NCBI GenBank assembly: GCA_016124895.1
Contig: WGMU01000111.1
Coordinates: 1 to 64,000, forward strand
Length of the DNA: 64,000 bases
Source of the DNA: a bacterium
GTDB lineage: Bacteria > Planctomycetota > Planctomycetia > Planctomycetales > Planctomycetaceae
Direction: 5' to 3'
A program made the translations under genes and the position numbers. This document shows positions 16,384 through 45,800 of this stretch, in pieces. Numbering within the stretch: the stretch's first letter is position 1; each line of letters opens with the position of its first letter. Below the pieces are notes generated by a model. That model ran no database searches, was not told the origin of the DNA, and saw only the letters and a program-made list of their open reading frames with translations.

Positions 16384-16500
16384 CAGCGCAAAGGCGCTAA
16401 GCCGCAGAGAATCGCAAAGGAAGAGTGTTTTTTCCAAGCGTAAGAATTCGATTTTTGAGACCTGTCTTTGCGAACTCCGTGCCTCTGCCACTTTGCGCTG
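16384..16500. repeat. Imperfect palindromic element downstream of accD
   Basis: The left arm 16384-16420 (CAGCGCAAAGG...ATCGCAAAGG) is roughly the reverse complement of the right arm 16465-16500 (TCTTTGCG...CTTTGCGCTG). The block fills the gap between the accD stop (16511) and the kinase start (16341). It resembles the common GCAAAG/CTTTGCG-type dispersed palindromes of bacterial genomes. Confidence 0.6.
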
Positions 16501-16510
16501 AGAGTCTGAG

Positions 16511-17362: not shown

Positions 17363-17450
17363 TGCAGTACCCGCCTGTTGTTGAAAATCCGCGGTTGCCG
17401 TCTCGTCGTCGAATCAGACTGGCGGTTGCTTCCGTCAATGACTGGAAAAG

Positions 17451-21150: not shown

Positions 21151-21429
21151 TCGCAGCATGGGCGACCAGGGAAACTGGTAATGCTGTCACTCCACTCATT
21201 CGGGCCGTCGAGTTCAGTCAGCGGTTCTGTGTGAGTGATATTGCGGGACTGAGTTCGCTGCGGGCGCGCACCACCTCGTCTGAAATCTTCGCTCTCTGGA
21301 AGACACGTCGGTGCATTAAAGTGACGTCGAAGTGCTGGTTTCTGATGGTCAGTCTCCTCCAGGCAACGCTCGACAGCGCAGGAAGAGTGGTTTGCAAATC
21401 GCTCCCCGCGCAGAATGAACTGATTGAAA

Positions 21430-22017
21430 ATGCCTGACATCACACAACTGATCAATCTCGCGGAATCCGGCGATGACACGGCCGTGCGGGAGCTGTTCGA
21501 TCGAGTTTATGCGGACCTGAAGCGCATGGCGGCGAGCCGGCTGGCCAGTGAAAAGTCGGGGCAGACGCTGCAGCCGACGGCGCTCGTTCACGAGGTCTAT
21601 CTGCGGCTGTTTGGCGGCACTCGCAGTGGCGACGCTCGGGAGGGAGCCTGGGATTCGCGCGGGCACTTCTTTGCGGCGGCGGCCGAAGCGATGCGGAGGA
21701 TTCTGGTCGAAGCGGCTCGCAGCCGCGGCCGACTGAAACGCGGCGGCGATCGGAACCGTGTTTTCCTTGATCCCGACAGTATCGCCGCGCCGGATCTGGC
21801 AGACGAACTGCTGGCGCTCAATGAAGCACTCGAAGCGCTGGCGGCGATCGATCCGCAGTCCGCGAAACTGGTCTCGCTGCGTTTTTTCGGGGGGCTGACG
21901 ATCAAGGAAGCGGCCACTGCGCTCGGGATTGCCCCGCGGACGGCCGACGCCTGCTGGGCCTACGCCCGTGCCTGGCTGCTCGCCCGAATGCAGAATTCTT
22001 CCAGGTGTGACGATTGA
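21430..22017 (+). CDS. ECF sigma factor, TIGR02999 type
   Basis: 195 residues from the ATG at 21430. Region 2: ELFDRVYADLKRMAASRLASE, then TLQPTALVHEVYLRL and FFAAAAEAMRRILVEAARSRGRLKRGG, the typical pattern of this planctomycete-enriched subfamily. Region 4: LEALAAIDPQSAKLVSLRFFGGLTIKEAATALGIAPRT (read in pieces) is the -35-recognition helix-turn-helix. No anti-sigma gene is adjacent; a membrane Ser/Thr kinase gene follows, and kinase control of such sigma factors is known in this phylum. A promoter-like motif begins 7 bases after the stop codon. Confidence 0.93.
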   Translation: MPDITQLINLAESGDDTAVRELFDRVYADLKRMAASRLASEKSGQTLQPTALVHEVYLRLFGGTRSGDAREGAWDSRGHFFAAAAEAMRRILVEAARSRGRLKRGGDRNRVFLDPDSIAAPDLADELLALNEALEALAAIDPQSAKLVSLRFFGGLTIKEAATALGIAPRTADACWAYARAWLLARMQNSSRCDD

Positions 22018-22023
22018 ATTTCG

Positions 22024-22060
22024 GGAATTCTTCTGCGCATCTTCGAGCCCGCTGTCGCAT
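22024..22060 (+). promoter_or_regulatory. Two-part promoter-like motif upstream of the kinase gene
   Basis: GGAATTCTTCTGCGCA, 12 bases, then CTGTCGCAT. The same arrangement recurs at 24713-24750 before the giant gene, with GCGCA and CTGTCGCAT again separated by 12 bases. The two halves and their conserved spacing look like -35 and -10 elements. The 3' end lies 188 bases before the kinase ATG. Confidence 0.6.
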
Positions 22061-22248
22061 GGGGGAATGAGGCAGATTCCGGCGGAGGCGGGTCTTCACG
22101 ATGAGGCTTTTCAGACGCAGGCCGAAACGCTGCGCAAGTTTCCCTGCAAAGACCACGGCGTTCGGCTTGCCTTGACACGGTATCAGCCGGGCAGGCTGCA
22201 CGAGATACACAGATAATTTGACGGAATGGTTTTTCGCCAGGCACTGAG

Positions 22249-24633
22249 ATGGCACAGTCCGAACAAGAGATTTTCATCGAAGCTCTGTCGTTCCCCGCCG
22301 GGACCGAGCGGAACGCGTTTCTTGACAGGGTCTGCGAGCGCGACTCGCCACTGCGGCAACGAATCGACGAACTGCTGCGTCTGCACGCCAGCGAGGATTC
22401 GGTGCTCGACCGGCAGCCCCTCGAAATCGTCGGCTCGCTGTCGCTGCTGGGAGCCTCAGCAGGCGACGAGCACTCCGAGGAAGAATTCGCGAATGAAGTC
22501 GACGTGACGTTCGAAGCGCTGAAGCCGCATCTGCTCGAACCGTCGCGTGAGGACGCACTCGGACGACTCGGGCATTACGATCTGCTGGAAGTGCTTGGTC
22601 AGGGCGGTTACGGGATCGTATTCAAGGCATTCGACGCGAAGCTCGACCGGCTGGTCGCGATCAAAGTGCTGCTGCCGCATCTGGCCGCGACGTCGCCTCC
22701 GCGGCGGCGGTTTCTGCGCGAAGCCCGGGCCGCCGCTGCGGTCCATCACGAAAACGTCGTGCAGATCTACGCCGTCGAGGAATCTCCGTTGCCGTATCTC
22801 GTGATGGAGTTTGTCTCCGGCGAAACGCTGCAGCAGCGGTCGGACCGGATCGGGCCGTTCGAGCCTGAAGAGGTTATCCGGCTGGGGCTGCAGATCGTGC
22901 GCGGACTGGGGGCAGCTCACGAGAAGGGTCTGATCCATCGAGACATCAAGCCCGGCAATATCCTGATCGAAGACTGCATCGACGGTCGGGCGAAGCTGGG
23001 CGACTTCGGTCTCGCCCGGACGGTCGACGATGCCAGTAACTCGTTCAGCGGAGCCGTGCTCGGCACGCCGATGTACATGTCGCCCGAGCAGGTGCTGGGT
23101 GAAGAACTTGATCAGCGGTCAGACCTCTTCAGCCTCGGCAGCCTGCTGTATCTGATGGTTGCCGGCCGGCCTCCATTCCGCGCTCCGAGTACACTGGCCG
23201 TGTTGAAACGGGTTGCCGAAGACCGGCCGCGGTCGATTCGTGACATCATCCCGGAAGTGCCGACGGGGCTGTGCGATGTCATCGCAATGCTGCACGAGAA
23301 GTCACGCGACGACCGGTATGGCTCCGCCCGGGAAGTCGCCACAACGCTCGAAACCTGCCTGACGAATCCGACGCAGCGGCGACCGCGACGGCGCGCGAGC
23401 GACCGGTTTCCGGGCCGGCTGCTGCGGCATCCGGCGTTCGTCGTTCTCGCCGTTCTGCTGCTCGGATTTCTGGTCTGCGAGGCGACCGGTTTAACGGCGT
23501 TCGTACGAGCCCGTTCGTCCGACGCCAGCCACGTCGCCGGATCGGCACCTCCAACAGGCGGGCCGCGCGACGCTCTGGCCGAAGCCGGGGGCACTGTTCC
23601 GCTCGAAGCCGGGAACGAGACTTTGGATGCGTCGCAGGAAGCGACGGCTGCGTCTGGCGAGTCGACACCGGTTGCGATTCCCGGCCGCACAAGTTCGAAC
23701 ATCGTCGTGACGAGTACGCTCGACGACGGACGTGTGGGCACGTTGCGCTGGGCGGTACAGCAGGGGAATCTGCATCATGGCGAGGACTCGATCACGTTTT
23801 CGCCGGATGTCTTCAAGCAGCCGCAGACGATCACGCTGACCGCCGGGCCGCTGGTTCTGGCCGATTCCGCTCTAACCACCATTCAGGGGGCGGCTGCGGG
23901 AGTGACGATCAGCGGCGATCAGAAGTTTCAGGTGTTCGTCATTGGAGCATCTTCTGATCGAGAGGGTGCGGCGCAGGCAGCGATCGCGAATCTGACGATC
24001 GCCGAAGGTCGCGTGACTGAAGAACTGCGCATCGGCGGCGGAATTCTTGTGCGCAATGGTTCGACACTGACCATGACCGGCTGCCTGCTCCGCGACAACG
24101 AGGCGATGCTCGAAGGCGGCGGAGGCGGGGCAGCCTTTATCAATGGCGGAAAGCTCGTCATGTCGAACTGCACTCTGACCCGGAACCGCGCCTGCGAAGG
24201 TGGCGCGATCAAGAATTACACAGGGACGGCACGAGTGACAAATTGCACCTTTGTCGACAACTCGGCGAATATCGGCGGAGGCTTCTACACGCTGGGTTAC
24301 AACATCGCTCGAACGGAAATCAATAACTGCTTGTTCGTCATTTCGCCCGGCAACGACAGCGTGTTTTTCGACGGTTTTGAAGTCACCGGCGACTTCAACC
24401 TGACCAGCGACGGCAGCGCGCCCGGCTCGCACACGCAGTCGAGCGCCGACGTTCGACTCGGGCCGCTGGGACAGTACGGTGGGGCGACCGAAACGTTCCC
24501 GCTCCTGACCGGCAGTTCGGCTCTCGACGCCGGCAGCAATGACCTCGTCCCGACCGAAACTCGCACGGATCAGCGCGGTCTGGACCGAATCGTCAACGAC
24601 GCGGTCGACATCGGTGCCTTTGAGGTGCAGTGA
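22249..24633 (+). CDS. Membrane Ser/Thr kinase with extracellular beta-helix sensor
   Basis: 794 residues. Residues 1-55 carry the helical N-terminal block common to planctomycete kinases (FIEALSFPAGTERNAFLDRVC). Kinase domain about 107-375: LGQGGYGIVFKAF, VAIKVLLPH, HRDIKPGNI with catalytic D232, LGDFGLAR and GTPMYMSPEQ, all intact. One TM helix (about 398-418, FVVLAVLLLGFLVCEATGL). The outer half (about 480-794) starts VVTSTLDDGRVGTLRWAVQQGN, a CSLREA-type opening, has Gly/Asn-rich beta-helix rungs such as SNCTLTRNRACEGGAIKN, and closes with DQRGLDRIVNDAVDIGAFE, a choice-of-anchor-Q end. It sits between the sigma gene and the giant gene, both on the same strand. Confidence 0.93.
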   Translation: MAQSEQEIFIEALSFPAGTERNAFLDRVCERDSPLRQRIDELLRLHASEDSVLDRQPLEIVGSLSLLGASAGDEHSEEEFANEVDVTFEALKPHLLEPSREDALGRLGHYDLLEVLGQGGYGIVFKAFDAKLDRLVAIKVLLPHLAATSPPRRRFLREARAAAAVHHENVVQIYAVEESPLPYLVMEFVSGETLQQRSDRIGPFEPEEVIRLGLQIVRGLGAAHEKGLIHRDIKPGNILIEDCIDGRAKLGDFGLARTVDDASNSFSGAVLGTPMYMSPEQVLGEELDQRSDLFSLGSLLYLMVAGRPPFRAPSTLAVLKRVAEDRPRSIRDIIPEVPTGLCDVIAMLHEKSRDDRYGSAREVATTLETCLTNPTQRRPRRRASDRFPGRLLRHPAFVVLAVLLLGFLVCEATGLTAFVRARSSDASHVAGSAPPTGGPRDALAEAGGTVPLEAGNETLDASQEATAASGESTPVAIPGRTSSNIVVTSTLDDGRVGTLRWAVQQGNLHHGEDSITFSPDVFKQPQTITLTAGPLVLADSALTTIQGAAAGVTISGDQKFQVFVIGASSDREGAAQAAIANLTIAEGRVTEELRIGGGILVRNGSTLTMTGCLLRDNEAMLEGGGGGAAFINGGKLVMSNCTLTRNRACEGGAIKNYTGTARVTNCTFVDNSANIGGGFYTLGYNIARTEINNCLFVISPGNDSVFFDGFEVTGDFNLTSDGSAPGSHTQSSADVRLGPLGQYGGATETFPLLTGSSALDAGSNDLVPTETRTDQRGLDRIVNDAVDIGAFEVQ

Positions 24634-24712
24634 CGATTTCGCACAGTGCCCCATGAATCGGCAGCCCGTCCTGCCAGTCAGGACCGTCTCTGCGGCGCCC
24701 CGCAACAATCCA

Positions 24713-24750
24713 GGAATTTTTCTTGCGCAATTCCGCCAGCTCTGTCGCAT
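24713..24750 (+). promoter_or_regulatory. Two-part promoter-like motif upstream of the giant gene
   Basis: GGAATTTTTCTTGCGCA, 12 bases, then CTGTCGCAT, matching the copy at 22024-22060 except for one extra T in the first half. It ends 96 bases before the giant gene's ATG. Its recurrence only before these two genes points to common control, plausibly by the adjacent ECF sigma factor. Confidence 0.6.
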
Positions 24751-24846
24751 GTCGCGGTGCGGGGTTCGCCTCAACGACTCTCGGGTGCGCGTCCGTCCCC
24801 GATGTAACAGACCGCAGTCGTTCCAGCAGCCCCGCTGGAGCCGGTC

Positions 24847-27800
24847 ATGTCGAAACGCTTTTTTTCGCGTCTATTTCTGAATCCCTTCAATTACCAGAGC
24901 CGGTCCCGCAAAGGGAGCTGGCGACGCTGGCTGCGGCAGCGAGCCAGCCGGCCGGTCAGCCGCGTCGAGTCGCTCGAAGCGCGGCAGATGCTGACGGCGG
25001 ACTATTCCTACCTGGCCGTTGATGCGACGCCGCTGCAGCTTCAGGTCAGTGGCGGGCAGCTTCAGGTTGTTGAGAGTGAGTCGCCGTCGACCGTCCTGTT
25101 CTCGCAGGCCGTCGCCGCGACGAACGAGGTCCTCATCGACGGCAACGGTCAGGACGTCGCACTGACGATTGATGTCAGCGTCCCGGCATTTGCCCGAGGC
25201 ATCAGCTTCGTCGCCGAGGCCGGAAAGACCGCGCTGGTCGCTCCGGACGGCAGCAACGTCTGGACGATCACCGGCGACCAGTCTGGCACGCTGAACGGCA
25301 TCGTTCAGTTCTCCGGCGTCAACACGCTCGTCGGCGGCGCGGGCAACGACCGTTATCAGTTGAACGCGAACAGCAATCTCGGCTCGCTGGCGATCGACGA
25401 AACGGCCGGTGGCATCGACACACTCGACTTCAGCAGTACGTCGAGCGGCCTGACCGTCGACCTGTCCAGCGCCCTGGAGCAGACGGTCAACTCGAAACTG
25501 AAGCTGCTGCTGACCAGCGGCGAGTCGATCGAAAACGTGGTCGGCGGCAGCGGAGCCGACAACCTGTCAGGCAACGAACTCGCCAACACGATCACCGGCG
25601 GCGCGGGGAACGACACACTGAGCGGAGGAGGCAGTGACGACGTTTACCTGTTCGGGGCGAACTTCGGAGCCGACACGATCTCCGAAGAAAGCGGCGCGTC
25701 GAACGGCGGCTTCGACGCGATCGACACAACGGCCATCTCCAGCAACACGACCGTCCGCAAGCTGAGCGACGGCATGTACTCGCTCACGGTCAGCGGCGGC
25801 AGCATCGCATTCGGCAATGTTGAAAAACTCGCGGCCGGTTCCGGCACCAACACGCTGGATTATTCGAGTGCGTCGTCGGGCGTCTTTGTGAACCTGTCGA
25901 CGCGGTTCGCCGACGACTTCACGGAAGTCAGCGGCTTCCGCAATGTGATCGGATCGAGCTTCGATGACACGATCGTCGGCAACGATCAGGCCAACGTGAT
26001 CAGCGGCGGCCTCGGCAACGACCGGCTCGCCGGCGAGGGCGCGTCCGACACAATCGATGGCGGCGGCGGTTACGACACGCTGACCGAGGTCCGCGACGCG
26101 AACTTTGTGCTGACGAATACCGCACTCGCCGTTACCGGCACCGGTCTCTCGGAAAACACCTCGCTGAACCGGATCGACAGTGTCACGCTGGTCGGCGGCC
26201 TCGGAGCGAACATGCTCGATGCGAGCGGGTTTCGACCGTTGCTGGCGACGACCGATCTGGCGGGGCTGAATCTCGGCGATGGCGTTGATCTGTCGGCGAA
26301 CGATCTGCGGCTGCGACTGACAGACGGCAGTGTGGCCGCCGTCAATCTCGCCGGAGCGAGCACAATTCAGGACGTGCTGAACGCGATCGCCGCGGCGGCG
26401 TCCGGGAAGCTCACCGCGACGCTGAACACCGACTCAAACGCCATTGTGGTGACGCAGACGACTGGCAATGGAGCGGGCAGTCTGTCGTTCTCCTCGACAT
26501 CGTCACTGGCGGCGGACCTCGGCCTGAACATCACCGGCAGCGGCAGTGTGCTGACGAGCCTGCGAACGGTCGCGCGCGGAGCGACTCTTGACGGTGGCTC
26601 GACGATTCCGCTGTCCGTGCTGAATAACGGCACGGGAGTGCGGACGACCGACGAGATGCACCTGCTGCTGCGCGGCCGCGAAAGCACGACACCGCTCAGC
26701 GTGCTCAATCAGGGAACTGGAGTCCGGACAGTCGTTGGCAACGACTTCCAGATCACGCTGACAGACGGCCTGACCGTCAACGTGGATCTGAATTCCAGCA
26801 TGACGCTGCGACAGGCGATCGACGCGATCACGACCGCGGCCAACGCCGTTGCGTCTGGCCGCTTGTCCGTCGAACTCGACGCGCAACTGGGGACAGCGCT
26901 GGTTCTGACCGATGCCACAGACGCCGGAGGTAACCTGAAGGTCGCGTCGCTCAATGGCTCGTTCGCCGCTGACGATCTGGGGCTTCTGGTGGGCAGTACA
27001 GGGGCGAAGCTCGAAGGTGCTCCGCTCGGGGAAATCGCGGCCGATCTGCGCGTCACAATGACTGATGGCGAGTCGGTCGAGATTGATCTGAGCGGCCTGA
27101 CAACGCTCGATCAGGTCATCGAGCGACTCAACACGTTTGGAGAAGGCATCAGCGTCACGGTGAACGCATCGGGAACCGGGATGGTCGTGCGAGACACGAC
27201 CAACGGCCCCGGCAATCTGAAGATCGAAGCGTTGAACGGTTCGCTGGCCGCGGCTGACCTGGGCATCGTCGGCATCGGATCGGGCGGAGTGATCAACGGC
27301 ACGAGCATCGTCAGCGGCAGCCTGCGACTGGATGGCCGCAACGACGCCGACACGCTCATCGGCACGACGGGCGACGACTTCCTGATCACTGGCGGCGGCG
27401 GCGACGCACTCTTTGGCGGCGTGGGTACGGATACTGTGGTCGCGGCACGCGATACGAACATGACGCTCAGCAACGGGAGTCTCGCGCTGGGCACTGGCGA
27501 TGCGGCGTCGCTCAACAGCATCGAACAGGCGCAACTGGCGGGCGGCAACAGCGCGAACGCGATCAACGCGGCGGCCTTCAGTCTCGGCTCGGTCACGATC
27601 ATCGGCGGAGCCGGCAACGACACTCTGACGGGCGGTGCCGGCGATGACCTGCTGTTCGGCGGCGCGGGCGCGGACACAATCGACGGTCAGGGCGGCACCG
27701 ACCGCATCGCCGAAGGCGGCCAGCGCATCGTGCTCGACAGTCTGGGTCATGGCGTGGGTGGAGCGGCGACGGTGGACCTGGCGGAGGGGACGAACGAAAC

Positions 27801-30800
27801 GGTCCTGATCACGCTGGGTGCCGGAGTCACCGGCGGCAGTTACCGGTTAACGTTCAACGGCGAATCCACTTCCGCTCTGCCGTTCGATGCCGACACGTTC
27901 GACATCAAGAGCGCCCTGGCTCAGCTCAGCGGACTTGGACGCGAGGATCTGATCGTCTCGGGCACCGGCACGACCGGTCCGTGGACGGTCACGTTCGTGG
28001 GAACAAAGGGCGGAATGAATGTCCCGGATCTCACAGCGACGAGTATCGATCTGGCCGGAGGAGGAGTGACAGCAACGGTCACGACGCAGGGCAGCCGGAT
28101 TCTGAATTCACTGGTGAGTATCGAAACGGCGACGCTGTACGGCACGCGTGGGAACGACCTGATTGACTCGTCGCTCTTCTCCGGCACGACGGTGATCAGC
28201 GGCTTCTGGGGCAACGACACGCTGATCGGCGGCAGCGGAGCGGACCTGATTCTGGGCGGCGATGACGACGACCGCATCACTGGCAACGGCGGTGCCGACA
28301 CACTCGATGGCGAGTTCGGCGTCGACACGATCGTCGAATCACGCGACGTCAGCTTCACGCTGACCAATACGACGCTTGTTGAAACCGGCGGCGTCCTCGG
28401 CGCAGCGACCGAGACGGACGCGATCGATGGCTTCGAGTGGGCCAGCATGACCGGCGGCTCGTCGGCCAACACGATCGACCTCAGCGCATTCACGGGGCTC
28501 AACGTCGAAGCGTACGTCGCGCTGCTGAATGGCGGCAACGGACCGGGTGCGACGGACGGAACACTGCTGAATCTGACAGGGCTCGAAGCAACGACACCAC
28601 TGGCGGTACTCAATAACGGAGCGGGGATTCGTACGTCGGCGGGAACGGACTTTGTTCTGGTGCTGCGTGACGGCTCGGCCAGAGCGGTCGATCTGGGATC
28701 AGCCGAGACATTGCAGGACGCGTTTAGCGCCATTCACGCGGCCGTGCCGAGTGTCACCGCCGCGCTGGATACCACCGGAACAGCGATCGTGCTGACGGAT
28801 TCGACAGCGGGTGGCGGCAACCTGAGCATCCAGTCGGTAACGAATACTTCTGTGGATCTCGGCTTCAGCCTGCCCGGTGTCGGCGGCGTGCTGACGGGTG
28901 TGTCCATTACCGACGGAGCCAGCGACGTCATCGTGACGCTCAGCGATGGCACGCGCGTCGGCGTGGATCTCTCGTATGTCGCCACGTTCCAGGACGTTCT
29001 GGATGTCTTTGCGGCGTCCCATGAGAAGCTGACCGCTGCGTTCGATGCCGACCGCACGCGCATCGTGTTGACCGACTCCGCGGGTGGCGGCCAGCCGCTG
29101 ACCGTCGTGGCGGCCAACGGATCGCTGGCAGGAGCGAGCCTCGGCCTGACGGGTACCGGAGTCGTCAGCGGCATCGCTTCGCTGACAGGAGCACCGATCG
29201 GGATCGCGATGGCCGCGATCGACGGCAGCGAAGGAAACGACACCCTCATCGGCACGCCTGGCGACGACACGCTCACCGGCGGACTCGGCAGCGACTCAAT
29301 CAACGGCGGCGGCGGAACGAACATGCTGATTGAGCAGCGCGATGCGAACATGACTCTTGGCGCGACGACGCTTGTCGTCGGCAGCGAGACGAACGCATTC
29401 TCTTCGATTCAGCACGTGGAACTGACGGGCGGAGCCAGCGCCAACACGATTGACGCGTCGGCATTCGCGGGTTCGGCCGTGATCAGCACCGGCGGCGGGC
29501 TCGACACGCTCAAAGGTTCGCAGGGCGACACGACGTTCAATATCGACGTGACGGGCCTGACGACGCCGATGTCGGCATCGGACGTCGCGCATCAGGTCAC
29601 GGTTTACAAGGCCGGTGGCAAGAGCACGTATGTCGTGACCGGAACCGACAGCTCGCTGACACAGGATGACTTCTGGTGGGTCAACGAAATCGGGACCAGT
29701 ACCAATACAGAGTACAAGCTCCGTAGCTCTGAGCTTGTTCTGTCTGTCGCGGACATCATCAGCGACGGAAAGGACATCACAATCTCTGCCGATACGGTGA
29801 GGTTGAACGGTCACGCGATCATCAGCGCATCAACGACGGGAGACGCGGGCAACATTTCCATTCTCGGCAAGCGGATTCTGATCGACGGCGGCACGCGGAT
29901 TGACGCCCGGGCGACCGCTTCTGGAAAAAGTGACGGCACGGTCACCATTGCCGCCATCGATGACAAGGCCCGGATCACTGGCGGCCCCCTCGCGGCGCAG
30001 GCCAACATCGACCGGCTCGACACCAGCATCACAATCGGTGCCGCTTCGATTTATGGCGACTCGGTCAACATCAAAGCCGTGGCCGACAGCTGGATGTTCC
30101 TCGGGAACCGCGATTTTTCAGGAGGCTTACTGAGTGACACCGGAAAGAAAATCGGCTCGATTGCCGTGCAAACGATCACGGAAGCCCTGCCGCTTCTGAC
30201 GCAGGTGTCTCACGCTCGATCCACTGCCGACATTGATATTGGTATCGACGCCGCCCCGACGGTCATCGTCGGCAACACGGTCAACATCACGGCCGACACT
30301 GCAGCCAACATCGCCAGCAAGCCGATCGGAATCGTGGTCTCCGTCCCCGTGGCGGTGATGCAGACCTCATCGACGGTCAACCTCAACAACGTCCGAATTA
30401 CGACGACCGAAGATCTGGTCGTCCGCTCGCAGACCGACATGCAGGTCAACAGCGTCGCGGCAGTCCAGGCACTCGGTGCGGCGATTGGTGTGAGCGTCAC
30501 CATCGTCAGCTCGACTTCCACAGCACAGATTGGTCCGGACGCCGTCGTGAACGTGGGGCGCGACCTGTTCGTCCAGGCCGACACGATCGACCGCAACTAC
30601 ACGAACGCGACCGCCTTTGGCGATCTGACGACAATCATCGCTGTTGGCGTAGCGGCCAACGTGGCGGACATCCACTCGCTGGCAGCAATCGATGGGACCG
30701 CCATCGTCGGCCGCAACGTCAACGTCACCACGAAAGTGTCGAAGCAGAAGGTCGAAGGTCAGAAAGGCATTCTGTTTCCGACGTTTTACAACGGCGTGTC

Positions 30801-33800
30801 CGCGTCTGCGCTGATCACTCCGACGTCCACGTTCGGCAACCCGCTGGATGACATCGCGAACGCCGGGATCGGCGAAGTCATCTACCAGATTCTGCACATT
30901 GGCCCCATCCAGAAGTTCCTTCGCGGTCTTTCCAACTGGGTTCCAGTGAAAGACGCTCCGCTGTTTCAGGGAACCGTGGGCAGCGCGTTCGTCTCGTACT
31001 CGACAGACGCCGTGTCCCGTATCGGAGACGCTGTCTCCAGCAACTTGGCTGTGGTCGATGCCGTGGGAACCGTCAACGTGACTTCCACAGTTGATGTCCG
31101 GCCGGACATCACCGCTACAGCACTGAGCAACTTTGTTCCCGGAGAAGGCGAGGTCGTCAAAGACGGCGTGACGAAGCCGATCACTGATAAGGCTGATCTG
31201 GACTTCCGGATTCTGGGACGCCCCACCGTGAGCCTGGGCGTCGCCGTGACCACAGGAATCTATGAGAACAACAGCCACGCTGTGATCAACGGCAACGCGG
31301 TCGTTGATGCGGGTATGGGCGTGGCCCTCGACGCGGAAACCAGGAACAGGTTCGATCCCGCCAGCGTTTATCTGGCCAACCTGGTCGCACCGTTCCGGAA
31401 AGCCACACCGACGTGGAACACGGGAAGTGGCAGCCAGTTTCTGAATGGCAGTGACACTGTCGAGGTACTCAGCGGACACACGGCGGGCGGTGATGTCGGC
31501 AAGGTTTACCGCTACATCGGCCCCGACGGCAGCCAGACGAATCTGTCCGACGAAGACTTCACCGACAAGAACCGCTGGCAGGAAGTGTCACTCGGTTCGG
31601 AAGCGGGACTGGGTTTCGTTCGGACGCTGACGAGCTTCCTCGATAACAACATGGGGCTCGATAACAACCTGATTGATGTCTGGACCCAGTCGGCTGCCCG
31701 CGGTGCCGAGAAACTGGCCATCGCCGGTTCGGTCGCCAACGTCTTCCTGCGACAGAACGCCGACGCAGCGATCCGCAGTGGCGCACAGGTCAATCAGAAA
31801 GAGGATGCCGAGCATCTGCGAACACACAGCCAGATTGTCAGTGTGACGGCCAGCAGCCATAACGAGACGATCGATCTGGGGGGCAACTTTCAGACGCCGG
31901 GGCCAGGCAGCCTGTTTGCGACGGGCAGCAACTTCCGGTCCTGGACGTCCAACCCGACCAAGCCGCTGTACGCATCCATCCAGCGTTACATCAACAGCAA
32001 AAACGGCGCGAAACGCTACGTGCGCAGTTACGGAGCCAGTCGCAGCGCTCCCGGCTTCGACACGTTCGACGGAACCGGCGGTGACACTGTCGCCGCGGTC
32101 GGAGCCACCGCGACCTCGTACTTCTATCGCAACAATGCGACGGCCACGATCGACGATGGAGCGCAGGTCTTCGCCGACAAGCTCGACGTCACCGCGGACA
32201 ACCGGGTTCTGGGCGTGGCCGCCGCAATTTCGGGCGGCAAGTCGGAAGACTTCACATTCACCGGCGTCGCCGTCGTCAATCAGGTCGATAACACCACGAT
32301 CGCGCGAATCGGCGGGCAGGCGGTCGTCAACGTCACTGGCGACACGACGGTTAACGCGACCGATACGTCCAACGTAGTCACCGTGGCCGGCGGTCTGGCT
32401 CGTTCGGAACGAGTCGGCTTCGGTGCGTCGCTGGCTCTGAATCTGATCAGTCGGCAGACGGAGGCTGTAATCGGCAATCTGGCCGATGATACCGTGCTGC
32501 GCTCCGGCGGCTCGTTCCACACCGGCGGCGATCTGGCTCTGAACGCAGAAGCGGGTGGCTTCATCGGTGCATTCGGTGTGGCGGGCGCTTCGGCGGCGAA
32601 CGACACACCGAGTTCTCAACGAACGGGGATTGCCTTCGCTGCTGCAGTTGCCACCAACAAGCTCGATGACACGGTGCGGTCGAGCATCTACCACGCAACG
32701 GTTTCCGCCCGGGACATTGAGCTGCAGGCGAAGGCCGCTCCGATCCTGGAAGCCTTTACGATCGGTGCGTCTCTGGCTCGCGCCAATACCAACAGTGTGG
32801 GTCTGGCCGGCGCGGCGTCGGTCAACGACGTCACCAGTCATGTCGAGACCTCGATCAAAGCCAGCAATGACAACAACCCGGCCGACCTGCGTGGCGTAAC
32901 GGCGCTGGCCGGAGGCGTGGCTCTGACGTCCGAGGATGCGACTCAGGCGTTCGCTCATGCCGGAGCGGTCTCGATCGCGTGGTTCAATTCCGGTGGAGCG
33001 TTGCGGCAGGGCAAAAGCATTTCGATCGGCGCGTCGATCGCGCTGAACCTGATCGGTGAGGACGGCGACAGCAGCTCGACCCACGCATTCATTGAAGACT
33101 CGAAAGTCGTTGCCCAGGACGCGATTCAGGCCGACGCGTTCAACGATGGAAGATTCCAGACACTCGCTGTCGGTGGTTCCGTCTCGGTCATCGGAGGCGC
33201 GGCCCTGCTGCCCAGCGGGGCCGCTGTTTCCCTGGCGGCTGCGGGTGGTTACTCGTCGAATGTCATTTACAGCTCCATTCAGGCATTCGTTCGCGATGAG
33301 AGTGACCTTTCAAGCCAGTTGTCCGGCGGTGTTGAACTCTCAGCGAAGGACAGGACGCGATTGATCAATGCAACTGCGTTTGGAGGCGCCGTGGCCTACG
33401 CGGGCTCGGCGAATCCAGGCGGTGCGACAAATGCCGTGGCCATTGGTGTGGGCATTGCCCGAAATCGGGTCGCTGGTGAGATCTCTGCATTCGTCGATGA
33501 CTCGCAGGTCGCAACCAGTGCTCCACTGCTGGTGACGGCTGCGAATCAGTCCAGCGTGTCGGCTGTGTCGCTGGGCGTTGCAGTCGCGGCTTCGACCGGA
33601 ACTGGCAGTTCCGTGAGCGTGTCAGGTGCCGGCTCGGCCTCGCTGAACGAAATCGACCATGTGGTCCATGCCGGGATCCACGCTTCAGTGGTGACAGCCA
33701 GCGCAGCCACCGAAGTTTTCGCAGAGAACGACGGCACAATCTTTGCCTTTGCTGGCGGCGCTTCCGCAGCGGCCACCAGTGGTGCCAAAGGAGCCACCGT

Positions 33801-36800
33801 TGTCGCGCTGGGGGCGTCGATGATTGTGAACAACGTGGACAGCGCGGTGAGTGCCCTGGTCACCGACACCACGCTGGCCAGCCCCACGCTCGTACTTGAT
33901 GCGACGTCGTCTCCCGTGGTCTCCGGAGTGGCCATCGCGTTTGCGGGTGGAGGTGCTGTGAGCAATCAGACTGCTGCGGCGATCGCCGGGGCTGGAGCGG
34001 GCGTCATCAATCTGGTCACGGACTCCGCCATTGCCGAAGTCCGAGGCGGCCAGATCACGACGACGTCCGGCGATCTGATCATCAATGCGACCGATGACGC
34101 CAATGTGGTGGCCGTCGCGGGAGCCGCGGCGGGATCGGGGAGTTCCGCCGGGAATGCCGCTGCCATCTCCGCGCAGGTGGGAGCTTCCTTTGCCATCAAC
34201 ACGATCGACTCGACGGTTCGAGCCACGATCGCTGACGGTGCGGTTGTCACATCGGCGGAAGACGTCGCGCTGACCGCTTCGCAGGATCAGGACATCCACA
34301 GCGTGGCGCTTGGATTTGCTGGCGGCGGCTCCGGTTCATCCAAACTGGCGATTCAGATTGCTGGAGCCGGATCGGGAGCCGGCAATGAGATCAATGGCAC
34401 GGTTGAGGCTTCCGTGGTGAGCAGCACCGTCACGCTGCCTGGAACTCTAACGGTCAGCGCGCTGGATCATTCGAATATCGTCACCGTCGCCGGAGCGATC
34501 GCTGGTGGTGGCGGCGGTGGCGGCAATATCGGCGTCGCCGGCTCGATCGGCGTCTCGGCGGCTGACGTGGTGATCGGGAACTCGGTGCGAGCCATCGTTG
34601 ATGGCAGCACCGTCAACGCTGTGCATGGCGTCGGCCTTCTGGCCTCATCTGACGCGACCATCACCACGATTACCGTCGGCGGAGCACTGGCCGTCGGCGT
34701 TGGCCAGAACGTCGGCGTCGGGATCGCGGCAGGTGGAGCGGGCTCGGGCAATCGGATTCACAACACGATCGAAGCCACGGTGCGAGGCAATAGCCAGATC
34801 ACCTCGTCGGCGGACGGGCTGACGATCACTGCCAGCGACGATTCCCATATCACGGCGGTGGCTGTCGGAGCGGCACTGGCGATCTCATCCGGTCAGGCTT
34901 CGGTCGCGGTGCCGATCGGTGCAGCGGTCGCAGTGAACCGGATCTCGAACACGCTCAAGGCCGGAATCGAAAACTCGCACGTCGCCAGTGTGGCGGCTCC
35001 GATTTCGATTCACGCGATGGATCGCGCTGACATCGACGCCGTGGCCGTCGCCGCGACGCTGTCGATCGCTGTCGGACAGGGAGGCAGCGTCGGCGTCAGC
35101 GGCGGTGGTGCCGGTGCGGAAAACACCATCCTCACCACAACGACCGCGACGATTGACGACAGCACGATTGACGCGGCACCGTCGATCGAAGTCGCGGCCA
35201 GCTCGACCGCGTCGGTTCACTCGGTGATCACGTCCGTGGCCGGAGCCGGCGTCAGCGGCCAGGGAGCCGGAGTCGGGATCGCGATTGGCGTCGGCGCTGC
35301 CCGCAATTTCATCGGCTACGACAAGCTCGACAACGTGCCGGCGAATGTTACGTCCGAGCAGCGTCCGACTTCGCTGACGTTCGGTACGACGGTCAAAGTC
35401 GAAGACGGGCCGCTCAAAGGCGACGTCTTCCGCTACCTCGGCCAGAACGTCACGGATAGTAACGGCATCAACCTGACTCACGCCGACTATGCCGACACGC
35501 GCGTCTGGCAGCAGGTCAACATCGCAGAAGTTCCCAGCGGTGTTGCGGCGCTCGTTCGTGACTCGGAGCTTCACACGCCGGGCACGCTGACAGTTGATGC
35601 TCAAAGTCACGCCGACATCGACTCGACCGTCGTTGCCGTCGCGATCGCGATCTCACGTGCCCAGGTGGCCGTTGACGTGGGAGTCGGCGGGGCGTTTGCC
35701 GTCAACCGGATTAAAGACGACGTCACGGCGCAGATCGACGGAGCCACGGGCACGGACATGGTGGCCGGCAGCGTGATTATGTCCGCCCGCGACGAATCCC
35801 GCATTCACGCGGACACAGCGGCCGGCGTCGTGAGTGCCGCCTTCGGGCAGGTGACCTCGGTGTCGGTTGCGTTTGGACTGGCGATTGCCTCGAACGAGAT
35901 CGCCAACTCCGTCACCGCGACGATCGTCGATGCCGATTCGCTGTCCACAACGAGCGGCAAAATCGATATCGGTGCGCACTCGCACGACACGATCGACAGC
36001 CTGTCGCTGGCCATTTCCATCGCGCCGGCGTTTGGAAACAACGGCGTGGGTGTCGGCGTCAGCGGCGGCGGAGCGGTCTCGGTCAACGAAGACCTCTCGC
36101 AAACGAAGGCGTCGATCGTCAACAGCGACGTAACCGCCGGCGGTAACGTCTCGGTGTCGGCGACGAACGACAGCGACCTCGACGCCACCGTGGTCATGAC
36201 GTCCGTGTCGTTCAGCCTGGGGAAAGTCGTCGCGGTCGGCATCTCAGTTGGCTCAGCGGTCGCGCGAAACCTGATCGGCTTCACGGCGACGGGCGATCGC
36301 GTGGGCACGCCGGTGCAGGCCTTCGTCGCGAATTCGAGCATCCAGACGACCGGAAGTCTCAACGTCGCTGCGTGGTCCAACGCCAGCATCAACTCGGAAG
36401 TGGGAGCCGGTGCCGCCGCGATCGCCGTGACGACTTACATCATCAGTACCAGTGTGGCCGTGGCTGGTGCAGGAGCGGGCAGCGACAACCGGATTGCCTA
36501 CGACACGCAGGCTTACATCGATGGCGACTCGACGGGCATCTCCGTCAGCGGCCTCGCGATCAGCGCCGACGATACATCAACAATCAATGCTGAAACGGGC
36601 AGCGTGGCCGTCGCGGCGAATCTCGCGCTGGTCGGCGCGTCCGTCAGTCTTGGCGTTTCTGTCGCTGACAACGTGATCGACAACCACGTCAGCGCGACCA
36701 TTGCCCACGTGGACGCGCTGCGGACAACCAGTGGAGACATCTGGCTGTCGGCAACCGAGCACGAGATCATTCGCGCGAACACGTTCTCCGCGGCGGGAGC

Positions 36801-39800
36801 GCTCGGTATCACGATTGGCGGCGCGGTCAGTAACGCGACCACGGATGCCAGCAACACCGTCACCAGCGCCGTGTCGACGGGCATCGTCAGCAGCGACGTG
36901 ACGTCGGCGGGCAACATCTCGCTGACGACCGAAGAGCGATCGAGCATCGACGCGACGATTCAGGCGGTTTCCGTGTCCGTGGGCATCGCCAGTCTGGCGC
37001 TGGGAGTGACTCTCGCGGACAACACCGTTGGCGGTTCCGTGACGGCTTACGTGACGGAGAGCAGCGTGGCCGCCGAAAACAGCGGCGATATCAGCGTCAA
37101 GGCGACGTCTCACCCGAGCGTCACGACGAGCAACACCGTCGGCGCAGCCTCGCTGCTGATCGGCGTCGCCGCAGCTGGCGGCCGGGCGTCTTCGACGATC
37201 AACAATATCACCGGCGCCTTCGCCCGGAATGCTCAACTGACGGCTGTCGGCGACGACATCCGGATCGAGTCGAACGCCACGAACTCAATCGATCCGCAGG
37301 CACTCGCCTTCTCGGGCGGAGCCGTTTCGATCTCCGCCCTGAATGCCGACGCCACGATCGGCGGTCGCACGGTCAGCTACGTCGAGGGCAGCAGCAGCGT
37401 GAACGCCGCGACGTTGAACGTTGTTTCCGGAAGCACGAACACGGCGACGCCGAAAACGCAAATCGCTGGCGTCGGTACGTTCGCAATCACGGCCGCGTCC
37501 GCAGACACGAACATCACCCGCGCGACGGACTCGGTTCTGGCCAACGGCTCGCAACTGGAAATCGGCTCGACCGTCGTGACGTTCAGCGCGAATTCGATGT
37601 CAAACGCAACGGCGACGGCGCAAAGCGTGACCGCGTCGCTGATCAGCATCGGAGCGATCGGCCTCAACACGAACGTCACGCCCGGCACGCGGGCCGCTCT
37701 TGAGAACGGTTCGACAATTCGGGCCAACGGTGGAACCGTCAACCTCTCGGCCACGGAATCCAGCGAGGCTCACACGCGACTGCAGTCCGTGGGTGTCGGA
37801 CTGCTGATCAACGTCAACGTCAGCCATCCGACCGCAACGGCCGCTCCGCAAACGAAGGCTGAAGTGCTGGGTGATATCATCGGCACGACGGCGAACACGC
37901 GCGCGGCCGCCGTCAACGTGCAGGCGATGTCAAACGATCGTGCGGAGACACTCTTCCACAGCAACAACGGAGGCCTCATTAACGTTTCGTCCGGATCGAC
38001 ACATGCCGTGGCACATCCGACAACTCAGGCCAACGTGGGTGCTGGCCGCACGATTCTGGCCAGCGGCGACGTGTCAATCAGCAGCCAGTCCATTTCGGAA
38101 GCCGACTCATCGTCGCGCGGCTCGTCCGGCGGCGTTGTGACGATCAGTTCGCTCTCGGCGACGGCGGAATCGACGCCCTCTGTCACTACGAACGTCGGGT
38201 CGACCGCGATGATTGACGCCGGTGGGACAATCAACCTCGGAGCCAGCGCATTCCTGAACCGCAATTCATCAGACAGGACACGAGCTGAATCGGGCGACGG
38301 CTTCACCACCGCCGCCAGCGCCAGCAGTTCCGGTGGCTTCGTTACGATTCAGGATGCCGACTCGACAGTCACCGTGACATCCGTCGCGCAGAACCACCTG
38401 GGAGCCAGCTCGAAACTCACGGCAAACCAGATCCTGATGACGGCCAGCGGCGTCACAGCCGGAGAAGTGCTGACGGTCGGAGCGGGTGGCGGCTTCATCT
38501 CCGCCGGCGGAGTCGATGCCACGCTGACGGACAACAACACCGCGCACAACACGCTCGATACTGGCGTCACGCTGACCGCCCACGACTCGATTTCGATGGT
38601 CGCCAGCACGCTGGTTGACGATTACGGCAAGTCATCAGCGGATATCGGCGGGTTCGTCTCGAGTGTCTTCGCCAATACGACGCTGCGGATTGACTACGAC
38701 AGTGCCAATCTGATCGGTTCGTCGTCGAGCCTGGTCGCCGGCGGGTCGCTGTTCGTCGATGCCACCAACGCTCTGATTGCGTATGGCGAATCCCACGCCG
38801 AGTCCGGCGGTCTCGGGGCGGGGGCCTATTCGAGCAACTCCGATGGCCAGCCGGACTCGCCCCAGAACAAGGGTGTGCAGATCACTGGCAACGTCCGGAC
38901 TGAAGTCTTCGACAACGCGCATCTGAAAGGCGACTCAGTCACTCTGCGCGGACGCGTCACCAGCCTGACCGCTCACATGGAGACGAAATCCAAAGGCAAA
39001 GGGCTCGGCACGAATTCCGACACGGTCGCGAACGTCGATCTCAACGACCAGGCACTGGTCACCATTCACAGCGGAGCGGTCATCGAAGCGGCAGGTGATC
39101 TGAATCTTGTCGCCGACCACGCACAGACACAGGCGACTTCGCACTCGAATGCCGTCGGCGCGTCGGCGGGTGGCGATTCCGATTCGACGTCCATCGTCGA
39201 TCTGGACAGCCTGTCGCAGGTCACGACGCAGACGGGTTCGCAGATCATCGCCCACAACCTGAATGTCGAGGCGACCTACTACGTCAACTATTACGACCGT
39301 CAGGCCGACCGCAGCGGCGGGATTGACTTTGGCTCGTCGCGAGTGCGCGGCGACTACAACCCACAGCAGGTCATCAACTGGCTGGGGAATGTCGAGATCA
39401 CCGCCCTGACCCCCGACCGCAAACTGGTCCTGGATGAGCAGGGCCGCGTCGAGTTGAACGAAGGCGTCACTGTGAACGGAAACAGTGGCATCGTCTCCGG
39501 CATCAGCGGCCTCGGCTGGAATCCGGAAGACAAGGGTTCGGTTCGCTTCCACTCGATTCCGGTCAGTTCGTTCGATGGCCAGACCGCTCCGGGTTCCGTC
39601 CTGGCGACGACCGGGTTCAGCCTGCTCCCGACACCGCTCATTTCGTTCCACGATTCCGTGCGGTCCGTCGAGGTCATCAATCGGGGCGGGCAGCCTCTCT
39701 TCTTCGCACCGATCGACGTTGTGAACTCATCGCAGGCCACCGCTCCGACGATCACACTGGACGTCAACGCCTTCTCCCCGGTCCTGGGAGGGATCTTCCG

Positions 39801-42800
39801 AGTCGAGCGCGTGTTCGATCCCACGACGATCCACATCGAATCGGGCGGTGGCGTCATCTTCAACGGAGACGTCGCGATCAATAATCCGCTCGGTTCGACG
39901 TCGATCACCGCGGCGAACATCAATGGCTTTTCGGGAACCTTCCGCTCACACAATCTGGAACTGCATTCCAGCGGAGATATCGGATCGGTGATCACCGAGT
40001 TTCCCGGCGGCAAGCCGGTCTCGCACCTGTGGAAGATCGAGCTGACGCAGATCGATGACGGCGGATTTTTCCTGGGGCTCGTCGATCCGGGCAGCCCCCA
40101 CCTGGTTCTCGACGCCGGCGGTGTGATCACGGCTTCGATCACGGGACTGCGACGTTCGACGCGCAGTTCCTTCACGGCGTACCTTGATCAGGTCTCGGCC
40201 CGGAAGTTGAACGTGGAATTCAATCCGGCCAGGGAGGAACTTTCCTTCGGCAACCTGGGTACGGTTCAGGTCGTCAAGACGCTGCCGGGAACCGGCTCGT
40301 TCCCGGTCGGAGCATTCACCAGAAACGTCTACCAGGTTTACGACATCGGGTTCTTTGGCAGCACCAGCGACGCGCCCACGACCAATACCAACGTCTTCGG
40401 CCAGTCGAACGGGAACGTCAGCACCGCGACGTACCAGGTGGACGGGCCTTACGAGATCACCGATCTGGAACACTCAAGCGTCGATGTGAAGCCAAACGCG
40501 ATCCTCGACTTCCTGCACTACCAGGAAGCCGCGTCGCTGCCGACGAACTTTACTCCTGGCGAGCAGCAGCAGTGGGTGGACCTCAACGGCGACGGAGCCC
40601 TCGATCTGATCACCGGCTCCGGTTCCACGCTGACGGTGCTGACGAACGATCTGGCGAACACCGACACGTTCGTGATCGCTCAGACTATCAGCAACGGCCA
40701 GTTGATCAGGGGCTTCGCACTGGGCGACGTGGATCAGGACGGCGACTTCGATCTGGTCCTCCAGCAGGGTGGCTCCGTCCGCGTTCTGCTGAACTTCGGT
40801 GGCGTCTTCAGCGGTGCTGAGATGCTGCTGAACCTGTCGAACTTCTCGGGGACTCCGACCGGCGGCGTGGCTGTCGCGGACCTCGACGGCAACGGCTATC
40901 CGGACATCATCGATACGGGCGACCGCGGCATCGCCATCCACCCGATGACTGAGAACGGCAATTCCAGCAGCCTGCTGGCGATTGGCGGCAGCTACTCGAA
41001 GATCGACGTTGGCGATTATGACCGCGACGGTGACATCGACCTGCTGATCGGCGGTAACGGCGTGGCCTCACGCATCCTGCGAAACGACGGCGACTTCACT
41101 TTCACAGACGTTGGCCTCTATTTCCCGGCCACGATCGACGGACCGCTGCAGTTCGGCGACAGCGACGGCGACGGTGATCTCGACGTGCTCGTTCTGGGTG
41201 CACCGGTCAACGGAGAACGCACTCTGTCGATTTACGAAAATACGGGTGACGGATTCAGTGTGCGCTACTCGCAGGAGGACGCGATCACCAGCGTCCTGTG
41301 GAATGACCACGACGACGACGGTGACCTCGACGTCCTGTTCCACTACTCCCTGACGTTTAACGGCATCTATCTGGGCGACGGCAACTTCTATGGCATCAAT
41401 GTTGGAACTCCCGGAGATTCCAGTTCGCCTCTGTTTGTCTACACCGATACCGACAATCTCGTTCAGAGCGCTTCGCTGACAGGTTGGTCGGCAGCGAATC
41501 TGGTCAACGGTCACGGCGTCGATGTGCTCTATACCGGCGTGAAAGACGGCCAGCCGGTCTACAGAATCTACGAGAACCAGCAGCCGATGCTCGACGTCCT
41601 GCCGCCGGCACCGACCGGTGCCGGAGCGACCACGCAGGCATCGTTCGCGACGATCAGTTGGTCCAGCCCGCCGGGAACCGGCACGACCACGTCGCCCTAC
41701 ACCTACAACCTGAGGGTCACTCATGGCTCCGACACGTTCGAGATCTCCACGCCGTCCGGCCGGGGAGCGATCTCCGGAACGAAGTTCGATCTGACCGGCA
41801 TCGTTCTCGGCGACATCTACGACTTCGCCGTGCAGGCTGTGGACGCGTCCGGGCGACGCTCCGCCTGGACGACCGGCACTTTCGTCAGCACTCCGTTCAT
41901 CTTCGTCAATCAGACCGGTGATACGGACGACGGCGATCCGACGAACAATCAGACGACGCTGCGCGAAGCGGTCAATCTGGCGAACAGTCAGCCAGGCAAT
42001 TTTGTCATTCAGCTCAACGTCGCTTCGATCCAGCTCAACAGCGCTCTGAATGTGACCAGCTCGCTGTCAATCACGGGGCCCATCGCCAGTACCGTCGAGA
42101 TCGTCGGCAGCGGCAGCGACCGCATCTTCAACATCGATGACGGGAACCTGGCGACAACCGTGGATGTGAAGCTCGAAAACCTCGTCCTCAAGGGCGGCCG
42201 GGCCACCGACGGCGGAGCGTTGTACTCCACCGAAAACCTCACGCTGAACGACATCCGGTTCGCGGACAACGTGGCGACCGGTGACGGCGGCGGTGCATTT
42301 CTGAATGTTCCCAGTAACGCGCACGTCTCGATTGGCACTCTGCGTTCGGATCCGTACTTCGGCACCAACCACGCGGACCACAACGGTGGCCTGATCGCCA
42401 TCTCCAACGCGGGATCCGTCTCGATCAACAGCAATTTCCAGCTCGACGGAACCTCGGCCGGAAACGACGGCGGAGCCTTCTACATCGACAACCAGTCTTC
42501 CGGGCATATCTCAATGGCGGCTTACGCCATTCGAGCAACCGCCGGGAATGTCGGGGGGACGCTGGCCCTCGTGAACAGTGGCTTTGCCGACCTCAATGTG
42601 AGTGGCTACGAGGGCACGGCTCAGCAGGGCGCCGGTCTCTGGATTCACAACACGCAGCCGTCTGCGACGACAATTCTCTCCGGTCGTGAGGCAGCGAATG
42701 TCGCAGATGTCGGCGGCGGACTTTATGTGGTCAACGATGGCGGCACCGTGAGCACTCGCAACCTGGCGTTTGACCAGAACAGAGCCAACACCGGTGCCGG

Positions 42801-45800
42801 ACTGTTCCTGACGCAAACCGGAGGCATCACCACGCTCAAAGAGATCTACAGCGAACGCAACACGTCACTCGTCGGCCAGGGAGCGTCGATGGAGCTGCAG
42901 AACTACTCCGGCACGCTGACGGTGTCGTCGAGTCTGCTCCGCGAGAACGTGGCCGCGGGTGCCGGCAGCGCCATCGCCTTTGTGTCCGACGGCAGCGCCG
43001 CTCGAACGACCATCAGCGGCAACACCTTTGTGAGCAACCAGACTGGTTCCGACGGCACCGTCTTCGGCGTCGTGCAGGGCGGAGTGGCCAACGTCGTTCA
43101 GAACACGTTCTCGGCGAATGCGCTGACCACGGCCGATGCCACGGGCGGTTCCGCACTGGCGATCCACGCATCACCTGGTACGGCGACGAACGTGATCGCG
43201 AACACGATCGCCTACAACAATTCCAGCGTCGCGGCCGGAGCCGGGTCGCTCTCACTGACGGCCACTGGCGACGGCGACCGCACGATCCTGAGCGTCAACA
43301 ACCTGGTCGCCGATAACGTGCTGGCCGGCGGAGCGTCGGCTTACACGGTCACCAGTGCGAACCCGATGACCGAGCATTACCAGCTCACCGAATCCGGCAA
43401 CTGGGTCGGTAACAACGCCGGCCTGCTGCCGCTGACGTTGACGCTGGGCGGACTGGTTCCCGTCCATCCGCTGGCTGCCGACAGCCCCGTCGTCGATCAG
43501 GGAGCCGACGCCAGCCTGCTGCCGCAGTTCGATCAGCGCGGCGGCGGGTTCGATCGCGCGGCGGGACGTCCGGACGTCGGCGCGTTCGAACGACAGGCCG
43601 CCGGCTCGTACACGTTTGTGGTCTCGACTCTGGAGAACCGGCCCAACGGCGATATGAGCGACGGCAACCTCAGCCTGGTCGAAGCCATCCGCCGGTCGAA
43701 TGCCTCGCTGGGTCCTGACACGATCGTGTTCTCACCGGCGCTGTTCGGCGGCACGATGAGCGAAGCGAGCAATCTGCTGTATCTGTTCCAGGACTCGACG
43801 ACCTACGTGATCGACGATCTGAGCATCGTTGGCCCCGGCGCCAATCTACTGTCGCTGCGGTATCCGAAATTCGTGGTCGACGACGGCAACCCCGGCCATC
43901 AGATCAACTTCTCGATCTCCGGCCTGCGCGTGATCGACCAGTTCGTCGCTCAGGAATTCAGAGAGAACACAACGCTGTCCGGAGTCATCTTCGACCAGAC
44001 GTCCCAGTTCGGCGCATCCCGGCTCAACGTCCGCCCCGAAGCCGGCGCCACGTTCCAGCTCACGAACTCGTACCTGAATCGGACATACCTCGACGTGTCC
44101 GGTCCCGGCAACGCGTTCATCGACTCCAGCACGATCCAGGCTCCCGATGCGCTGCCCGCCTTCTTCCCGTCCCAATGGAGCCCGAACCCGAGCATCATCG
44201 CCGAGCCCGGCAGCTACGTAACAGTTCGCAACTCGACGCTGCTCGGCATCGCTCAGATGAATTTCGGCGATCCCATCGAAATCTCTCCCGCCACGGGAGG
44301 CATCGATGGCGCGGCGACCGTCATCAGCAGCATCGTGCCGTACGTCGGAGCCGGTTCGACGGTCATCAACAGTCTCATCGAAAACGGCGACCCGGCCGGA
44401 CTGACCGCGACCTCGTCCGCGGGCACGATCACGATCGACACGACCGCCCCGGACGCGCCGGTGATCAACGCGCCGTCCGGTCTGATCAACGATTCCACAC
44501 CAGCGATCAGCGGCACGGCCGAAGCCGGCAGCACGCTCACAATCGTCGTCAATCCCGACGACGACGCCTCGACGTTCAACAGCTTCACACTGACCACAAC
44601 GGCTGACAGTTCCGGCGACTGGAGCATCGACATCCCGGCCGAACACGCACTGCTCAGCGGTCAGCAGGCGTCATTTACCGTCACGGCCACCGACGCGGCG
44701 CAGAACGTCAGCACCGAATCGACTGGTGGCGTCGAGATCGACACGACCGCTCCGGCCGCACCCGTCATTTCGTTCCCGGTGTACGCCGACAGTCACTCGC
44801 CCGAGTTCGACGGGATTGCCGAACCCGGCAGCACGATCACCGTCGTCCGCGATGTGAACGGCTTCTTCTTTGACGTTGCCACGGTGACTGCCGACGCCAA
44901 CGGCCGCTTCCACTTTGCCGGCCCCACGGTTGACGGCTCCACCGAGGCCAGCGGAACCAGCATCAACCTCAGGCTGACGGCCACTGATGCCGCGGGGAAT
45001 ATCAGCGACGCCGCGACCGGTTCGTACAAGACGGATTCGCAGGCACCATTTTCCGCGAGCATTGAATCCGTCAGTACCAGTGGCGGCGTCGGCACCCTGA
45101 CACAGCCGCACTTGCAGGGGCGGGCCGATCCCGGTTCGCTGGTGACTCTCACGATTGACCCGGACAACGATGCATCAACCAGCAACAGTTTTGCTCTTAC
45201 GACCACAGGCGATGCCTTCAGCTACTGGTATCTCGACGTTCCGGCCGAGCACGCTTTAACGGTTGGCGACACGTTCGCGGCGACGGTCGTCGTCACTGAC
45301 GCGGCCGGAAACAGCAGAACGTCCAGCACGTCGACATACAGCCTTTACGACGACACGACATCCAACCCACCTGTGCTTTTCTCGCCGACGCTCGTCAACA
45401 GCGCGACACCAACAATCCGGTTCGTTGCTCAAAGCAATTGGCCGCAGTCCGTCGTCGTGGATTTCGACAACGATCCTTCGACAGACAACAGCGTCGATCT
45501 CAGCGGTGATATCGCGACTTCAAACAATGGCTACTACTCGCTGACAATCCCCGCGGATCATGCGCTGTCGGACGGACAGATCATCGCTGTTACTTTGCAA
45601 GCCCACTTCGGTGACCCGGCCAACTACACCATCACCGCCGACCTCACGGCATCCAATGCACCGGTTACTGCGATTCCCGCCTGGCTCAACTCGACAACGC
45701 CGACGTTGACCGGAATGGCGGAAGCACTCAGTACGGTGCTGGTCACTCTGGATCCGGACGACAAACCGTCGACGGCCAACAGCGTCCTGTTCACCACAAC

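Follow-up and report, generated by a model that had tools for sequence, protein, structure and literature searches.

Planctomycetes encode dozens of ECF sigma factors, few of which have known targets, and active ECF sigma factors carry the residues DAED in region 2.2. The closest described systems are the kinase-activated pairs of group ECF43, EcfP-PknT of Vibrio parahaemolyticus and EcfK-PknS of Xanthomonas citri, in which a Thr of EcfP or EcfK is phosphorylated by the neighbouring kinase, turning the sigma factor on (PMC8999054, PMC13147305). Four planctomycete groups linked to Ser/Thr kinases, ECF59, ECF61, ECF62 and ECF217, have been described as regulated by phosphorylation (PMC8999054), and in Rhodopirellula baltica under stress the ECF factor RB138 and the Ser/Thr kinase RB140 rise together (PMC2754498). 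Classical self-regulated ECF promoters, for their part, carry AAC at -35 and CGT at -10 (PMC8103513).

Here we consider a locus within a 64,000-nucleotide stretch of planctomycete DNA (the window), where an ECF sigma factor gene is followed by a Ser/Thr kinase gene and a giant gene, each of the latter two preceded by a copy of the same two-block element. Judging from sequence comparison, we put at roughly 0.88 the probability that both copies serve as promoters for the ECF sigma factor whose gene immediately precedes them. As in ECF43, the sigma factor lies beside a membrane Ser/Thr kinase and has uncharged residues for DAED with a Thr at the same place; unlike ECF43, it belongs to another subfamily (PF07638/TIGR02999), and its locus has two copies of one putative promoter, before the gene of the kinase and before that of a giant surface protein; the -35 core of this promoter is specific to the locus. 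It shares with ECF59, ECF61, ECF62 and ECF217 the setting of a planctomycete ECF factor beside a Ser/Thr kinase, and probably belongs to one of these groups. The element resembles classical ECF promoters in its two blocks of fixed spacing beside a sigma gene and in a -10 block that contains GTC, and differs from them in lying 3' of the sigma gene and before the kinase instead of upstream of the sigma gene, with TCGCAT at -10 and TG plus a locus-specific core at -35. The giant gene is like those of planctomycete extracellular or LEPR-XLL proteins (PF07595) and like other giant genes in its N-terminal VESLEARQMLTA motif, its RTX and cadherin repeats and its great length, but its PF07595 match stays under the cut-off. 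Sigma-kinase pairs are known; what appears to be new is the link of a giant-type gene to a putative dedicated sigma-kinase promoter. The features are as follows, all on the + strand.

21430..22017, +: ECF sigma factor gene, 195 aa (ATG at 21430; PF07638, E 3e-57; TIGR02999)
22024..22033, +: A/T-rich block GGAATTCTTC of copy 1, just 5' of the -35 core; fits the AATTT part of the learned model
22034..22039, +: -35 core TGCGCA of copy 1 (predicted kinase promoter); the core varies with the sigma region 4 helix across loci
22052..22061, +: -10 block CTGTCGCATG of copy 1; 17.5 bits, the window's best site
22249..24633, +: Ser/Thr kinase gene, 794 aa (PF00069, E 3e-46; NF041518; from the translation)
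24713..24723, +: A/T-rich block GGAATTTTTCT of copy 2, 5' of the -35 core (from the sequence)
24724..24729, +: -35 core TGCGCA of copy 2 (predicted giant gene promoter; from the sequence and the frozen model)
24742..24751, +: -10 block CTGTCGCATG of copy 2; 15.5 bits, the window's second-best site
24847..54387, +: giant gene, 9846 aa; LEPR-XLL-type N-terminus VESLEARQMLTA; RTX calcium-binding, cadherin, Ig-like and FG-GAP repeats

The sigma factor, its kinase and a possible switch at T50

In region 2.2 the window sigma factor reads QPTA, with T50, where DAED is expected; the replacement of DAED by uncharged residues with a conserved Thr is that of kinase-activated ECF factors. The pattern x(A/P)T occurs in nearly all of about 149 sigma homologues, and the T is invariant in a 10-sequence alignment. 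A single-sequence search of the sigma factor against the PDB gave no match; a profile alignment to M. tuberculosis SigL places QPTA at region 2.2 and also aligns the recognition helix of region 4, which in the window is IAPRTADACW and includes R170, D173 and A174.

The kinase comprises a cytoplasmic kinase domain, a transmembrane stretch at about residues 395-417 and a beta-helix ectodomain with a choice-of-anchor Q domain, and its gene adjoins the sigma gene, as a Ser/Thr kinase gene does in 49 of 60 held-out loci. Against PF07595 the giant protein gives E 0.0013 and 18.8 bits, under the cut-off of 25.5, with VESLEARQMLTA visible near its N-terminus. A choice-of-anchor Q/parallel beta-helix module (NF041518) is common to the kinase ectodomain and the giant protein, and the kinase receptor and its own target giant may have a ligand or partner in common.

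Let us suppose that the promoter assignment is correct. Region 4 of the sigma factor would then read the -35 core TGCGCA and region 2 the -10 block (TG)TCGCAT. Expression of the cognate kinase would start from copy 1, and that of the giant LEPR-XLL/RTX/cadherin surface protein from copy 2. The membrane kinase would most likely phosphorylate the sigma factor at T50 in QPTA, and the phosphate might restore the negative charge needed for RNA polymerase binding. Such a circuit would be closed: a signal would act through the kinase and the phosphorylated sigma factor to produce both more kinase, as positive feedback, and the giant surface protein, as output. By analogy with EcfP and EcfK, we consider activation of the sigma factor through phosphorylation by the kinase to be likely, and the joint rise of RB138 and RB140 fits a kinase-sigma circuit, although it does not test one.

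It is possible, if distinctly less probable, that the promoters do belong to this sigma factor and that the kinase does not activate it via T50, control being exerted by the level of the sigma factor, by another residue or independently of the kinase. Other sites matter in EcfK (T106), and a review doubts a single mechanism across groups; the closest reviews also describe some kinase-linked groups outside ECF43 that retain acidic residues, which means that the phospho-switch may not apply to every group. On the other hand, x(A/P)TA with a nearly invariant Thr stands in place of DAED, and the neighbouring gene, which has the same predicted promoter, is that of the kinase; both points argue for the switch at T50.

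The two-copy element and a model learned from other loci

The earlier note, made from this DNA alone, had described two copies of a motif, and both are confirmed: GGAATTCTTCTGCGCA-N12-CTGTCGCAT at 22024-22060 and GGAATTTTTCTTGCGCA-N12-CTGTCGCAT at 24713-24750. Their ungapped shared part is TGCGCA-N12-CTGTCGCATG, at 22034-22061 and 24724-24751 with identical spacing, and their GGAATT parts differ by a one-base indel. Copy 1 as a whole, GGAATTCTTC-TGCGCA-N12-CTGTCGCATG (22024-22061), lies directly 3' of the sigma gene, with 6 bases between the stop codon (22015-22017) and GGAATT; copy 2, GGAATTTTTCT-TGCGCA-N12-CTGTCGCATG (24713-24751), lies between the kinase and the giant gene. Neither the window nor the whole genome of 8.13 Mb has any exact match to TGCGCA-N12-CTGTCGCATG other than these two. 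With up to three mismatches allowed, the genome yields 67 matches against 91 for a reversed control pattern, and thus no excess of further copies or targets of the window variant. Over 28 bp the two intergenic regions agree in at most 20 bases (P ~0.013 by first-order Markov resampling of the window alone), a likeness reached by 62 of 1484 random pairs of window segments. On the window data alone the likeness is mildly significant, and the case for function rests on comparison. The predicted 5' leader of the kinase, at about 180 nt, is long and counts against the promoter reading. Inside the kinase coding region, GGAATTCTTGTGCGCA at 24040-24055 is like the upstream half of the promoter in 15 of 16 bases and is without a -10 block.

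For the comparison, sigma homologues were gathered with their downstream DNA, about 100 relatives being compared overall with genes called as longest ORFs, and a two-block model was learned by unsupervised EM from 50 regions between sigma stop and kinase start, the window locus excluded. These regions were cut at the kinase start; left uncut, they led the EM to conserved sequence coding for the N-termini of the kinases. The element obtained is AATTT..TGa, N17, tgTCGCATtg, with 76% of the weight on a gap of 17 and a log-likelihood of 282, compared with 65-79 in shuffled sets. When the frozen model is applied to the roughly 128,000 positions of the 64 kb window, the two copies take the top two places, at 17.5 and 15.5 bits; the next independent site reaches 12.1 bits and the maximum on the reversed sequence is 12.8. 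What is found 5' of the target genes is therefore what is expected of an ECF promoter, two conserved blocks at fixed spacing. In a held-out set of 60 loci from 40 unseen genomes, some of them in the same genus as training genomes, the frozen model gives at least 10 bits in 32 of 49 sigma-kinase gaps and in 1 of 60 segments inside the sigma gene. In L041/L130, whose sigma factor is 61% identical, the site is weak (7.2 bits), and some other loci are without any. In L114, L081, L101, L102, L060 and L085 the -35 block and the sigma stop codon have bases in common (..GTGA), and one sequence would double as stop codon and predicted promoter.

A search of relatives for GCGCA-N12-CTGTCGCAT, which the earlier note had suggested, fails: in 59 relatives the matches lie mostly in coding DNA, because the -35 core is specific to each locus. 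Until that specificity was found, these coding-DNA matches resembled a refutation of the earlier reading. Self-regulation of the sigma gene, by the same promoter placed upstream of it, was considered and rejected. The median score is 1.9 bits upstream of sigma genes, close to the 1.2 bits inside them, against 11.3 bits downstream, and 5' of the window's sigma gene the best site has 9.0 bits, with no promoter copy. The element thus belongs to the kinase side, and the sigma factor would presumably be made from another promoter and controlled after its synthesis.

Second copies also follow the kinase elsewhere. With a threshold of 12 bits within 320 bp 3' of the kinase, the motif is present in 10 of the 37 loci that have DNA past the kinase, compared with 2 of 87 regions that follow other genes (P 9e-5) and with 0.8% of windows drawn at random; in the held-out loci the same threshold is reached in 6 of 46, whereas 4 of 840 random windows reach it (P 2.5e-6). 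In 27 of 37 and 40 of 46 loci (about 70-85%) nothing after the kinase scores 12 bits, which means that target genes either vary from locus to locus or are located elsewhere. Genes so placed include some of LEPR-XLL type in L132 (two genes), L135, L152 (2087 aa) and L157 and, among held-out loci, in L238, L260 and L287, with L271 weaker at 9.0 bits, and some with signal peptides in L148, L151 and L166.

Some single loci deserve description. L132 (G051 C11) has three copies, at 1400, 4428 and 6275: one precedes the kinase, and two LEPR-XLL-type genes in succession have one each. In L167 (G053, 3877-17501) a giant ORF of LEPR-XLL type, at least 4541 aa long, comes after the sigma-kinase pair and has no recognisable promoter copy. 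L159 (G000 C154), a second sigma locus of the window's own genome, has at ~1377 a strong promoter of another type, TGGCGTGA..CGGCGCATTG, at 20.3 bits; a kinase signature was looked for directly after it and none was seen.

The window layout recurs in other families of the class, in the genomes G175 and G154. Both have sigma factors of the window's helix type, PRTADA-x-W, as do the nearest relatives of the window sigma factor. In G175 (sigma 66% identical) TGCGCG-N12-TTGTCGCAT is followed by a kinase, TGCGCG-N12-TCGTCGCAT and a giant gene of at least 4972 aa; the kinase is 56% identical to that of the window over 374 aa, and the N-terminus of the giant protein is 37% identical over 192 aligned positions. 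In G154 (sigma 60%) the order is TGCGCG-N12-TTGTCGCAT, kinase, TGCGCG-N12-CCGTCGCAG, a LEPR-XLL gene of 2790 aa and another long open frame.

The -35 core and the recognition helix of region 4

Within a locus, copies of the -35 core (TG plus five bases) match at 5.75 of 7 positions, compared with 3.38 of 7 between loci, and none of 20,000 permutations is as high, kinship among the sequences inflating such permutation tests somewhat. The flank just 5' of the core is not shared within loci (P 0.71), so that the copies are not simple duplications, and sharing of the core is seen again in the held-out loci (P 0.0005). Between loci, the more alike two sigma factors are in region 4, the more alike their cores tend to be (r 0.37, P 0.001); for region 2 there is no such relation (r 0.03, P 0.35). 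When single columns are scanned for association with the core, R170 (window numbering) comes first with z 10.4, followed by D173, S144, A174 and P169; four of these five fall in the recognition helix IAPRTADACW, and the same scan for the -10 block and the spacer gives no comparable peak. R170 goes with TGG or TGC and other residues with TGA (15:2 vs 2:22, P 2.5e-7 in the first set), a rule followed in 27 of 27 cases in unseen genomes (19:0 vs 0:8, P 4.5e-7); TGCGC cores pair with helices in which AD is not followed by R (PRTADA, PRKADQ and similar). The region 2 control, the flank control and the held-out set together argue against relatedness as the cause of this covariation. As expected of an ECF factor, then, covariation and its replication in held-out loci indicate that the recognition helix of the cognate region 4 sets the specificity of the -35; since this helix and the promoter change together, sequence can be used to assign such promoters to their sigma factor. 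That the sigma factor drives both the kinase and the giant gene, as the earlier note had proposed, is supported computationally by the model ranks, the region 4 covariation, the second copies and the layout.

These observations bear on whether the element instead might be the operator of a separate transcription factor which the sigma gene merely adjoins. The self-complementary TGCGCA of the window, a palindrome, would suit an operator, but elsewhere non-palindromic cores (TGAGG, TGGCG, TGGCC) occur at the same spacing, core variation tracks the recognition helix and two blocks 17 bp apart suit a sigma factor, which leaves this explanation very improbable. We regard with similar scepticism the use of the promoters by another sigma factor, either a paralogous ECF factor or the main one. 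Planctomycetes are rich in ECF factors, and this genome has further homologues, such as that of C154 with TGGCGTGA; this paralogue, however, has its own -35 (TGGCG) matching its own helix (PRTADRLW), the -35 core is matched within the locus, and a sigma-70-like promoter sought in 21100-25000 was not found. Least probable of all is a likeness due to chance, segmental duplication or an RNA-level element, for which the P of ~0.013 from the window alone and the -35-like GGAATTCTTGTGCGCA inside the kinase might speak, since a model trained elsewhere puts both sites on top, the flanks of copies in one locus bear no relation to each other, RNA folding does not surpass that of shuffles (z +1.4 and +0.6) and an Rfam search gave no match.

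Possible local circuits in planctomycetes

Returning to recognition of both promoters by the adjoining sigma factor, we are inclined to think that the planctomycete kinase-linked ECF factors make up many local circuits, each insulated from the others. Every sigma factor would have its own -35 'address', readable from the region 4 helix (R or A at 170 and its neighbours), and this address would recur before its kinase and, at many loci, also before the gene of a dedicated surface protein, giants included. If this is true, the code would predict from sequence, across the phylum, which sigma factor controls which surface protein. A locus-specific promoter code tying together sigma factor, kinase and giant surface protein would lead to testable predictions on targets and on the control of giant genes, and it suggests that orthogonal sigma-promoter pairs under Ser/Thr kinase control occur as a set in nature.
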